This document shows positions 21,460 to 25,851 of a stretch of DNA of 64,000 nucleotides, one piece after another. The notes under the pieces were generated by a model that saw nothing but the letters and a program-made list of their open reading frames with translations, was not told the DNA's origin and made no database searches. Within the stretch, counting starts at the first letter, position 1. Each line of letters begins with the position of its first letter. This DNA comes from Draconibacterium mangrovi (GTDB lineage: Bacteria; Bacteroidota; Bacteroidia; Bacteroidales; Prolixibacteraceae). The stretch covers positions 1,302,001 through 1,366,000 of the forward strand of contig NZ_JAAAGB010000001.1 in the NCBI RefSeq assembly GCF_010586825.1, in the 5' to 3' direction. A program made the position numbers and the translations under genes.

Positions 21460-24400
21460 TTAGCTAACCTTTTCGATCTTAATTTTAGCTACTACCTCTT
21501 TGTCAATCTCCACCTCGGCGGCCTCTGCCAAATTGGTGCTATCAACCAATTCGAGCACATCGGCAAGAGTTTGTGTACAAATGTATTCTTTGTGGTTTTC
21601 AACCGCCACATTATACTCTTCGTGTTTTGCAATACGCAACTTAATCCGATCGGTTACCTCAAAATCATTATCCTTTCGTAAGTTCTGTATTTTGTTGATA
21701 AATTCACGGGCAATTCCCTCTTGTTTCAGCTCTTCCGACACATTGATATCCAAAGCGATAGTCATTTGTCCTTCGGTGGTTACTGTCCATCCCGGAATAT
21801 CTTCGGTTTGAATTTCAACATCATCCAACGACAACATGATCTTCTCCTCTGCCACTGTCAACTCGTATTCGCCGGTACTTTCAAACTCCGAAATTGCATT
21901 CTGGTCCAGCTGGTTTACAGCTCCGGCAATTTGTTTCATCATTTTACCGTATTTCGGGCCGAGTGCTTTAAAGTTCGGTTTGATCTTCTTTTTGATCACA
22001 CCGGCAGTGTCGGTTAAGAACTCAACTTCTTTAACGTTTACTTCTGCCAGAATAATATTTGAAACGGCTTCGAATTGCTCTTTAAAGTGCGGATTTAATA
22101 CCGGCACCATAATTTTAGCGAGCGGCTGGCGTACTTTCAGTTTTTCTTTTCGGCGCAATGCCAAAATCATAGAAGAAGCTTTCTGCGCAATGCCCATCTT
22201 TTCTTCCAGATCTTTGTCAATCAACTCCTCGGCATAAGCAGGGAAATCAACCAGGTGCACGCTCTGGTCATCAGCTTTTCCTGTAGCTTTATTTAAATCG
22301 TTGTACAGCAAGTCGGCGTAAAACGGCGCGATTGGCGACATTAATTTAGCCACAACTTCCAAACAAGTATAAAGCGTTTGATAAGCCGAAATTTTGTCGG
22401 TAGAATATTCGCCACCCCAGTAACGTTTACGACTTAAACGCACAAACCAGTTACTCAGGTTTTCACTTACAAACTCCGAAATGGCACGGCCGGCGCGTGT
22501 TGGCTCGTAGTTTTCGTAGCTGTCGCCCACTTCTTTAATCAGCGAGTTCAACAACGAAATAATCCAGCGATCGATCTCCGGACGCTCTTCTACAGGAATT
22601 TCTTCTTCTGCATATTTAAAGCCGTCGACATTGGCATACAATGCAAAGAAATTGTAGGTATTATAAAGTGTTCCAAAGAACTTACGTTTTACTTCTTCAA
22701 CACCTTCGATATCAAATTTCAGGTTATCCCACGGCTGCGCATTGGTAATCATGTACCAACGCAACGGATCGGAACCGTATTTATCGATGGTTTCAAACGG
22801 ATCGACAGCATTACCCAGACGTTTCGACATTTTCACGCCGTTTTTGTCCAATACCAGTCCGTTTGAGATAATATTCTTGAACGCTACCGATTCATCGATC
22901 ATTGTTGCAATGGCATGCAATGTAAAAAACCATCCACGTGTTTGGTCAACCCCCTCAGCAATAAAATCGGCCGGGAATACATCTTTAAAATTCTCTTTCC
23001 ACTCGAAAGGATAATGGCGCTGTGCAAATGGCATCGCACCCGAATCAAACCAAACATCGATAAGGTCGGATTCGCGCTCCATTTTCTGTCCTGATGGTGA
23101 AACCAAAATGATATTATCGACATGCGATTTATGCAGGTCGATCTTTTCGTAGTTGGTTTTATCGTAATCGCCAACTTTAAATTCGGCAAATGGATTTTCC
23201 GCCATAAATCCGGCAGCAACCGCTTTATCGATCTCCGCCATCAGTTCTTCCATCGAACCGATACAGATTTCTTCCGAGCCATCTTCTGTTCTCCAGATTG
23301 GCAGCGGTGTTCCCCAGAAACGCGAGCGGCTAAGGTTCCAGTCAACCAGGTTTTCAAGCCAGTTTCCAAAACGTCCTGTTCCGGTCGACTTTGGTTTCCA
23401 GTTAATGGTGTTGTTCAGCTCCACCATTTTGTCTTTCACCGCGGTTGATTTTATAAACCACGAATCGAGCGGGTAATACAATACCGGCTTGTCAGTTCTC
23501 CAGCAGTGCGGATAACTGTGAACATGCTTCTCAATTTTGAATGCCTTGTTCTGCTGTTTCAGCATTACCGAAATATCGATATCAACAGTTGAAGCATCGT
23601 CTTCCAGTTTGTCGTCGTATTCGTTTTTCACCGAACGGCCGGCAAACTCGTGATAGGTTTCGGTATTTACATACTTTTCAACAAACTCCGGGTCCAAATC
23701 TATAGTGGGGTAAAAACGTCCTTTCCGGTCTACCAAAGCCTGACGTTTTCCTTCGGTATCAATTACGATCAGCGGCGAAATTCCGTGTTGTTTTGCTACC
23801 CGGTCGTCATCGGCACCAAAAGTTGGAGCAATGTGTACGATTCCGGTACCATCTTCAATAGTTACAAAGTCGCCGGTAATTATTTCAAAAGCTTTGCCTT
23901 CAGGTTTCACCCAGTCGATCAGCTGTTCGTACTGAACACCTTTTAACTGCTCGCCGGTATACTCGGCCATTACTTTGTAAGGAATATTTTTATCGCCCGG
24001 TTTGTAATCTTCCAGTGCCAACTCTGCATTTTTCGAGCTGAAATAAACCGGGAAAAGGTCTTTCGCCAGAATCAAAGTTACAGGATCGCCGGTGTACGGA
24101 TTAAACGAACGAACTTTTACATATTTAATGTTCGGCCCCACGCACAGTGCCGTGTTCGATGGTAATGTCCATGGAGTTGTCGTCCAGGCGAGGAAATAAA
24201 GATCGGTTTCCACTCCTTCGAAAAGGAACTCCGACCTTTCGTTTCTTAAAGCTTTAAACTGGGCAATAGCTGTTGTATCTTTTACATCGCGGTAACATCC
24301 CGGCTGGTTTAGCTCGTGCGAGCTCAATCCAGTTCCGGCTGCAGGCGAGTAGGGCTGAATGGTGTAACCTTTGTACAACAAGCCTTTGTTATAAATTTGT

Positions 24401-24897
24401 TTCAGCAACCACCAAACCGACTCAATATACTGGTTTTCGTAGGTAATATACGGATCGTCCATATTCACCCAGTATCCCATTTTGCGGGTCAGTTCCTCCC
24501 ACTCGCGGGTATATTTCATCACCTCTTTGCGGCAGGCATTGCTGTATTCTTCAACGGTAATTTTCTTACCTATATCGTCTTTTGTAATGTTCAGCGCTTT
24601 TTCAACGCTCAGTTCTACTGGCAAACCATGCGTGTCCCACCCGGCTTTACGGTGCACACGGAAACCTTTCATGGTTTTGTAGCGGCAAAAAATATCTTTT
24701 ATGGCACGCGCCATCACGTGGTGAATACCCGGCATTCCGTTGGCCGATGGCGGTCCTTCGTAAAATACAAATGTTTCGTGCCCTTCGCGGGTTGAAATAC
24801 TTTTATGAAAGGTATCATCATTCTCCCAACGCGTAAGCACATCCTTGTTTATCTGTGCTAAATCTAACTGCTTATATTCCTGAAATTTATTACTCAT
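21460..24897 (-). CDS. ileS: Isoleucyl-tRNA synthetase
   Basis: 1145 residues, the long eukaryote-like IleS form common in Bacteroidota. Class I synthetase with editing domain. The HIGH-like motif is in SANGMPGIHHVMARAIKD, followed by the WDTHGLPVEL block, and the KMSKS loop is GVKMSKRLGNAVDPFE. The C-terminal ~200 residues follow the DUF5915-like arrangement, without a clear terminal zinc knuckle. IleS of this type often resists mupirocin (family knowledge, not tested here). It is the first gene of ileS-traR-lspA. Confidence 0.96.
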   Translation of the reverse strand: MSNKFQEYKQLDLAQINKDVLTRWENDDTFHKSISTREGHETFVFYEGPPSANGMPGIHHVMARAIKDIFCRYKTMKGFRVHRKAGWDTHGLPVELSVEKALNITKDDIGKKITVEEYSNACRKEVMKYTREWEELTRKMGYWVNMDDPYITYENQYIESVWWLLKQIYNKGLLYKGYTIQPYSPAAGTGLSSHELNQPGCYRDVKDTTAIAQFKALRNERSEFLFEGVETDLYFLAWTTTPWTLPSNTALCVGPNIKYVKVRSFNPYTGDPVTLILAKDLFPVYFSSKNAELALEDYKPGDKNIPYKVMAEYTGEQLKGVQYEQLIDWVKPEGKAFEIITGDFVTIEDGTGIVHIAPTFGADDDRVAKQHGISPLIVIDTEGKRQALVDRKGRFYPTIDLDPEFVEKYVNTETYHEFAGRSVKNEYDDKLEDDASTVDIDISVMLKQQNKAFKIEKHVHSYPHCWRTDKPVLYYPLDSWFIKSTAVKDKMVELNNTINWKPKSTGTGRFGNWLENLVDWNLSRSRFWGTPLPIWRTEDGSEEICIGSMEELMAEIDKAVAAGFMAENPFAEFKVGDYDKTNYEKIDLHKSHVDNIILVSPSGQKMERESDLIDVWFDSGAMPFAQRHYPFEWKENFKDVFPADFIAEGVDQTRGWFFTLHAIATMIDESVAFKNIISNGLVLDKNGVKMSKRLGNAVDPFETIDKYGSDPLRWYMITNAQPWDNLKFDIEGVEEVKRKFFGTLYNTYNFFALYANVDGFKYAEEEIPVEERPEIDRWIISLLNSLIKEVGDSYENYEPTRAGRAISEFVSENLSNWFVRLSRKRYWGGEYSTDKISAYQTLYTCLEVVAKLMSPIAPFYADLLYNDLNKATGKADDQSVHLVDFPAYAEELIDKDLEEKMGIAQKASSMILALRRKEKLKVRQPLAKIMVPVLNPHFKEQFEAVSNIILAEVNVKEVEFLTDTAGVIKKKIKPNFKALGPKYGKMMKQIAGAVNQLDQNAISEFESTGEYELTVAEEKIMLSLDDVEIQTEDIPGWTVTTEGQMTIALDINVSEELKQEGIAREFINKIQNLRKDNDFEVTDRIKLRIAKHEEYNVAVENHKEYICTQTLADVLELVDSTNLAEAAEVEIDKEVVAKIKIEKVS

Positions 24898-24942: not shown

Positions 24943-25076
24943 GAAAAATTTTGATGGGTGGCGAGGATGAAACAGGCCTTAATTAAAACGGACTAATAAG
25001 CTTATTACAAATAATTTACATTGCAGCACAAAGCATTACAGGGTTGTTTGCACAGCACTGTAATTAACTGACTAAT

Positions 25077-25280
25077 AGTGTCCTGTTACATCCTGAGCCG
25101 TCCTGTTAGTTTTTATGGCGTCCTGTATCATTTTTATTGCTTCCTGTTAACTTTTTGGCTTCCCTGTTGGATTTTGGGGCGTCCTGTTACCCTTTTGCCT
25201 CATCCTGTTAAGTTTTTGGGCGTCCTGTTAAACAGGATTCAGGGATTTTGTAACAGGATGGGGGAAATGGTTACAGGGAA
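25077..25280. repeat. Array of CCTGT boxes with 20-21 bp period and phased T-tracts
   Basis: Eight direct CCTGT boxes start at 25082, 25102, 25122, 25143, 25163, 25183, 25204 and 25224. Three inverted copies (ACAGG) follow at 25232, 25253 and 25273, with the same spacing. The unit is roughly CGTCCTGTTAnnTTTTTGG, and the T-tracts recur in phase. The switch from direct to inverted units falls at the palindrome CCTGTTAAACAGG (25224-25236). The 24898-25536 gap (639 bp) has no recognised gene. The period equals two helical turns, so all boxes face one side of the DNA. Function unknown; see findings. Confidence 0.85.
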
Positions 25281-25312: not shown

Positions 25313-25346
25313 AAAGCCGCTTTACCGGGAAAGATAAAGCGGCTTT
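25313..25346. terminator. Strong hairpin beside the array
   Basis: AAAGCCGCTTTA (25313-25324) and TAAAGCGGCTTT (25335-25346) form a perfect 12-bp stem with a 10-nt loop. On the minus strand the stem ends in a short T-run, so it may terminate the CBM48 transcript ~190 nt after its stop and insulate the array. Confidence 0.6.
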
Positions 25347-25536: not shown

Positions 25537-25851
25537 TTAATTCAGGTCGAGTACCGAATTAAATTCGCCTTCAACAATACCGGTGGGAGCAGTACTGTCG
25601 GCTTCGCTTTCGTTTTCCCAAACCGAATTGTCGATTAAATATTTAAACTGGTAGGTTTTACCGGTTTCCAGATTCAGCGTTTGTGTAAAATCACCGCTTT
25701 TCAGTTTTTTCATTGGCTCAACACTTTCGTTCCAGCCGTTAAATTCACCCACAATTTTAATTGTATCTGCATCCGGAGCTTCTTCTTTTGCTACTCTAAA
25801 AGATACTTTACACTCAGGTTTACTTTTTAAATATTGTTTTTTTATACTCAT
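25537..25851 (-). CDS. Stand-alone CBM48/AMPK-type glycogen-binding domain protein
   Basis: 104 residues. The protein is essentially one early-set beta-sandwich: CKVSFRVAKEEAPDADTIKI, then VGEFNGWNESVEPMKK and YQFKYLIDNSVWENE. The FNGW block and the following K/FKYxxD strand are the alpha-glucan contact features of CBM48/AMPK1 domains. No signal peptide and no catalytic domain are present, so it should be cytoplasmic. By family it may bind glycogen or malto-oligosaccharides and regulate or scaffold other enzymes. It stands alone with a ~200-nt leader. Confidence 0.85.
   Translation of the reverse strand: MSIKKQYLKSKPECKVSFRVAKEEAPDADTIKIVGEFNGWNESVEPMKKLKSGDFTQTLNLETGKTYQFKYLIDNSVWENESEADSTAPTGIVEGEFNSVLDLN

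Follow-up and report, generated by a model that had tools for sequence, protein, structure and literature searches.

What is the phased run of CCTGT boxes upstream of ileS in Draconibacterium mangrovi, and which protein might read it? We analyzed the array within a 64,000-nucleotide stretch of contig NZ_JAAAGB010000001.1 (the window) and followed its boxes, and the genes next to similar arrays, through related genomes.

The array upstream of ileS and its relatives

The initial annotation described eight CCTGT boxes and three inverted ACAGG boxes at 20 or 21 bp, joined at CCTGTTAAACAGG, and exact positions confirmed this layout (Table 1). The CCTGT boxes start at 25082, 25102, 25122, 25143, 25163, 25183, 25204 and 25224 (steps of 20, 20, 21, 20, 20, 21 and 20 bp), and the inverted boxes end at 25236, 25257 and 25277 (steps of 21 and 20 bp). 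One more ACAGG, which ends at 25042, is not part of the array. The 20/21-bp steps were as annotated, but their mean was 20.3 and not 21. A triple-box pattern had 7 matches in the window, every one inside the array, and 0 in 100 dinucleotide shuffles. The autocorrelation that had been proposed as a check was run on the long arm, and its top lags of 61, 20 and 41 (0.66, 0.53 and 0.52) exceeded the 99.9th percentile of shuffles (0.485). The claim that T-tracts recur in phase also held, since the seven T/A-tracts of at least 4 gave R = 0.94 at 10.33 bp, the best among seven trial periods (Rayleigh p = 0.002). The start codon of ileS, a name taken from the initial annotation and the sequence, is 184 bp from the array.

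Table 1. Coordinates of the array and neighboring features in the window
Feature	Position	Strand	Basis
Entire helically phased array, solo copy	25082..25277	.	Box positions, shuffle test
Long arm with T-tracts, seven CCTGT units (20/20/21 bp)	25082..25223	+	Box positions, tract phase
Central dyad CCTGTTAAACAGG	25224..25236	.	CCTGT-NNN-ACAGG form in the remaining CCTGT arrays, a form that the scans required
Short arm, two more inverted units	25237..25277	-	Box positions
Putative terminator-like hairpin of the minus-strand gene, with the array beyond it	25313..25346	-	Inverted repeat and minus-strand T-run
Class I tRNA synthetase gene, read as ileS	21460..24897	-	PF00133, DUF5915
Small AMPK1_CBM protein gene, other flank of the array	25537..25851	-	PF16561, 32.4 bits (cut-off 26.8)

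A conserved position upstream of ileS had been suggested as a further check, and the array proved to be kept there. Among 30 ileS loci, fetched from the 34 that matched in the genus, 9 had the full array and one (L281) had a remnant. Indels in these arrays were mostly of whole units, with one of 10 bp (L284) and a few of single bases. The difference per pair among the nine arrays was 0.029 in the boxes, 0.165 in the spacers and 0.200 in the left flank (p 3e-6 and 5e-8, respectively), and the 60 bp adjoining ileS were as conserved as the boxes (0.019). When the box mask was shifted circularly, 1 of the 195 shifts matched this result. By these comparisons the window array, a solo copy, appears to be under selection, its boxes more conserved than its spacers. 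L279 and L285, which lack the CCTGT array, have by eye at the same place upstream of ileS a tandem repeat of 22 bp containing words that resemble CAAGTGAT.

Two CCTGT arrays besides the window array were present in the window genome, where the triple-box pattern matched 15 times forward and 4 times reverse (0 and 1 in the reversed control). This search gave matches in 20 of 41 genomes, those outside the genus resembling unrelated repeats by eye. A scan of GTDB contigs for the two-armed pattern identified 41 stretches, many of them in Draconibacterium, Maribellus, Mariniphaga, Mangrovibacterium, Sunxiuqinia, Labilibaculum and Ancylomarina. The CCTGT arrays had a common plan of long arm, CCTGT-NNN-ACAGG dyad and short arm, with steps mostly of 20 and 21 bp. 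The initial annotation held that an array absent or shuffled in close relatives, with none like it elsewhere, would likely be a chance or decayed repeat. Arrays were found elsewhere in the genome, in the genus and upstream of ileS, and these other arrays, the box conservation and the shuffle test led us to reject that candidate. Six of the scanned stretches (L062, L063, L069, L074, L076 and L091) looked like chance or other repeats; L069 is an Anaerolineae contig with CCTGTAGCACAGG in a 20-bp tandem array. Another solo array has an ammonium transporter gene on one side and a gene for valyl-tRNA synthetase on the other, and the ileS and valS arrays are in opposite orientation to their neighbor. 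An intergenic sequence of ~470 bp adjoins the short arm in L117 (6180-6660) and L110 and is absent from the window.

A helical protein family encoded next to the arrays

In the window genome, a CCTGT array begins 6 bp past the stop codon of a 245-aa ORF (L047). The initial annotation missed this linked protein family and its box code because both are outside the window. An AlphaFold2 model of the linked protein was all-helical (pLDDT 88.7, pTM 0.65), with final helices at residues 220-226 and 229-241. The linked proteins had no match of weight in Pfam, PHROG, PADLOC or PDB, and fold libraries including PDB and viral ones gave none at E up to 0.001. The function-unassigned phrog_18511 was weakly matched by 7 of 30 members; among the anti-phage defense profiles of PADLOC, one of 30 members was weakly similar to Cas12u1 (E 0.028) and the other 29 gave nothing up to E 0.1. 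No catalytic, transposase or Rep family was found among the linked proteins. Of 140 genomes from the family, 49 had homologues, and in a sample of the phylum 1 of 395 did, the window's own; plasmid, phage and viral collections had no match. A description of the system was not found in the literature searched, the scope of which stops short of bioRxiv preprints and most subscription journals. By eye, the 5' leader of several array-linked genes contains a hairpin-like inverted repeat (e.g. L047, 4730-4800).

After exclusion of matches ending before profile position 225, 106 distinct genes were left (L080 and L102 being one gene twice), and 105 of these had at least 250 bp of downstream DNA. A chain of at least five boxes at 20-21 bp was detected downstream of 74 of the 105 genes (shuffles, at most 4) and a chain of at least four downstream of 87, with 31 regions below five boxes. 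Upstream of the same genes there were arrays in 0 of 102 cases, and downstream of other long ORFs in 15 of 257, all 15 in loci fetched for holding arrays. Among the 35 arrays that started at least 60 bp downstream, 19 were separated from the stop codon by a terminator, as called by our simple hairpin-plus-T rule (0.2 expected from shuffles). The mean step in the 74 arrays was 20.67 bp and fell as A/T-tract content rose (rho -0.37, p 0.001), as expected if the boxes must keep to one face. Step length rose with overall A+T (rho +0.28, p 0.017), opposite to the A/T-tract trend, and both traits follow phylogeny.

These features bear on whether an array could act as RNA, with 3' UTR repeats bound by the protein as in a type III toxin-antitoxin system or a guide array. 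The position directly downstream of the gene, with 52 of the 87 arrays starting less than 60 bp past the stop codon, favors such a role, but it is very unlikely given the terminators ahead of the more distant arrays, a spacing that keeps DNA helical phase, and solo arrays in both orientations. Rfam likewise had no match to the window array itself, and only a sub-threshold hit to the neighboring hairpin. The secondary structure of the window array strand had a z of -2.75, which we attribute to the inverted arms. The arrays appear to act as DNA, not RNA.

Solo CCTGT arrays were present, and the matching gene was not found, in genomes G002, G003, G004, G005 and G021; G004 has six arrays, and the linked gene there is a recent-looking truncation. 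With tblastn (E up to 0.01), a remnant gene beside a solo array was detected only at L101 among 35 loci, the window included. Solo arrays without a matching gene count against our reading, and so does G008: there the matching gene is present, yet only 6 of the 9 script-chained boxes of the ileS array are perfect, so that boxes appear to be decaying in this genome despite the gene.

The dispersed copies suggest mobility. The array might be a mobile unit (MITE-like or a transposon end) with the linked protein as transposition factor and solo arrays as non-autonomous copies, a reading that gains from several non-orthologous arrays per genome, including the six in G004, from flanks past the boxes that some paralogous copies have in common, and from gene decay beside arrays. 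It is nevertheless unlikely. The linked proteins lack a catalytic family match, the common flanks vary by pair, neither terminal repeats nor target duplications were seen by eye, and the arrays remain at orthologous sites. Array-less relatives also gave no clean junction that would show the mobile-element remnant suggested earlier: in the 15 of 30 ileS loci aligned for this question there was no clean empty site, since the intergenic DNA of array-less relatives could not be aligned, and a second site (3 fetched loci) was alike.

Box words and protein residues

The box words differed among arrays and included CCTGT/ACAGG, GCAGG, GGAAAG, GTAGGA, GGGAGAAC, GGTGATAA, TGCGAG, CCCGGG, TACTCG and others. 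At our similarity cut the 87 arrays fell into 23 box groups, the largest of them a loose single-linkage chain of 40. Box similarity correlated with protein identity (Mantel 0.38, 0 of 2000 permutations, uncorrected for phylogeny). Of the top 17 specificity columns, 8 lay within residues 230-238, in the C-terminal basic helix, and the partial Mantel value for residues 219-239 was 0.131 (0 of 1000); the strongest partial-Mantel window was 197-210 (0.21), outside the C-terminus. In addition, 23 listed homologues of one clade (L237-L263) end before the C-terminal helix and 22 of them have a box consensus at 20-21 bp, some of it weak (chains of 3-4). The C-terminal helix therefore cannot be the only reader. 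No inverted copies were detected in the arrays of this clade, and several arrays of helix-bearing members are likewise devoid of detected inverted copies.

Residue 235 was compared in members picked for CAGG-like boxes, 35 at first and 32 after L255, L247 and L218 proved otherwise. Asparagine accompanied ACAGG in 16 of 16 cases (15 without a duplicate) and histidine accompanied GCAGG in 9 of 9. Lysine was found in five members (four with G, one mixed), serine in one (A) and arginine in one (G). The mixed array, that of L141 (K235), has 8 A and 5 G boxes, and in the R235 member (L180) the best chain is another word. On a quick tree built without the C-terminus we counted 9 residue changes and 10 box changes. 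Of five independent pairs on starred branches, on average 4.5 changed in the same direction and 0 in the opposite one (sign test, median p 0.0625, with 0.05 out of reach). When the array of the N-type L118 was compared with the homologous ones of the H-type L126, L127, L161 and L170, 11-12 of 12 switch bases differed, against 3-6 of 48 core positions and 60-74 of 156 spacer positions; one of the L118 switch differences was A-to-C and is probably an alignment shift. Compared with the N-type L008, L114 and L088, L118 differed at 0-1 of 12 switch bases. These counts omit L164 and L165, which were aligned. Together, the comparisons indirectly show that box words change along with the protein, in particular with residue 235 in its C-terminal basic helix, and direct recognition of the box by the protein would be the simplest reading of this coevolution.

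Other box types followed the same plan. Of 37 genomes in the genus, 11 had GCGAG arrays, and the control gave 0 matches. Solo GCGAG arrays were present in 10 genomes, 7 of which had the cognate gene by our own assignment of genes and arrays, as against 1 of the 27 genomes without them (Fisher p 9e-5, uncorrected for relatedness). GATAA arrays were gene-linked and solo in G006 and G008, and the GATAA pattern also matched in controls; the window genome has a solo GATAA array, for which no gene was found. By eye, the GATAA-type arrays of L345, L347 and L344, gene-linked and solo alike, have in common a stretch around CTCCGGTGATAACCGACA that is conserved.

The arrays might instead be bound by some other nucleoid protein of wide conservation, the linked gene hitch-hiking. 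It would account for solo arrays in genomes without a matching gene found, and for the large CCTGT arrays of Mangrovibacterium (L082, L084 and L093), where, provided that G514 represents this genome, the only family gene found belongs to another box type. We consider this highly improbable since the boxes follow the linked protein, and 23 box groups among 87 arrays make a single conserved protein an unlikely source.

A putative docking platform and its nearest counterparts

We propose, with a probability of about 75%, that the window array is a solo platform for protein docking on DNA, belonging to a two-part system that pairs an all-helical protein of ~245 aa with an array of boxes 5-8 bp long. 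Cognate recognition, helical phasing and, for the CCTGT type, the dyad are indirectly supported by the sequence comparisons. The behavior of the array, with similar arrays elsewhere in the genome and genus, fits the binding array for an unnamed protein that the initial annotation had suggested. In the proposed mechanism, the C-terminal helix would read one box in the major groove, and subunits would line up next to one another along one face of the DNA, beginning at the dyad. Roughly 8-20 subunits may then form a cooperative, stiff or bent nucleoprotein filament. Such a filament could conceivably serve as a chromosomal scaffold or an insulator between transcription units, and a gene-linked array might perhaps double as a reservoir or feedback sink. 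A broader and doubtful possibility is that one chromosome is organised by several anchor codes without cross-talk, each a set of phased arrays (loop anchors or insulators) with one code word and its own bridging protein of a rapidly diversifying family; in the window genome the orthogonal sets would be CCTGT, GCGAG and GGAAAG. A comparison of 21 pairs within genomes spoke neither for nor against orthogonality. What matters here is that an unnamed protein family is coupled to DNA with a code readable from its sequence, and that the exchange of one residue is predicted to switch specificity (N235 for ACAGG, H235 for GCAGG), a switch that a dozen boxes follow at once. If true, this would offer a naturally occurring experiment on how proteins and DNA coevolve and supply many orthogonal DNA binders; it might also reveal a new way for bacteria to structure their chromosomes.

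Among known systems, ParR-parC centromeres have tandem boxes two helical turns apart that are bound side by side by a small neighbor-encoded protein, with orthogonal specificities; the pSK41 centromere reportedly has 20-bp repeats. The arrays described here similarly have tandem boxes about two helical turns apart beside the gene of the inferred binder. They differ in being chromosomal and dispersed, in having a central dyad, in lying downstream of the gene and in part beyond a terminator, and in that no ParM or ParA was noticed; the linked protein also has no ParR sequence or fold match (E up to 0.001). This layout, like that of centromere arrays bound by ParR or KfrA, would fit a partition site or iteron array from a plasmid-like replicon that is now chromosomal. 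We regard such an origin, which the initial annotation had raised as an iteron-like locus, as quite improbable: there was no plasmid, phage or viral-contig match, no ParA-like gene was noticed by eye beside the inspected arrays, and the CCTGT arrays of two complete genomes are scattered, lying, as fractions of the chromosome measured from dnaA, at 0.43, 0.46 and 0.62 in G008 and at 0.008 in G006, with no clustering seen at origin or terminus. Replication iterons differ further in that the linked protein has no Rep family hit.

StbA of R388 reportedly binds direct repeats. KfrA of RA3 is an alpha-helical, oligomerizing DNA-binding protein tied to plasmid maintenance (PMC7783346), and StbA is a DNA-binding protein tied to plasmid maintenance (PMC3098194). 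Both are plasmid systems, whereas the linked family is unmatched in the plasmid collection. The PQLLE family (NF052641) is likewise from Bacteroidales, and three linked members gave sub-threshold hits to it (18.4, 29.4 and 33.4 bits). These do not reach its curated cut-off of 80 bits, hhalign gave a profile-profile probability of 3.2% (E 0.014), and 20 of 21 PQLLE loci had by eye no such array downstream, L191 not being readable. In L186 (1230-1450), GAAGCA boxes ~20-21 bp apart lie, by eye, upstream of a true PQLLE gene, with a methylase-like ORF on their other side. REP/RAYT and BIME elements are intergenic and dispersed, and a protein family is dedicated to them. The present arrays resemble them in both respects but are not hairpin pairs, and the linked proteins have no transposase family hit. 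By analogy, the system appears to work like a single-protein centromere array, but it lacks hallmarks tested for ParR, for iterons and for the PQLLE family.
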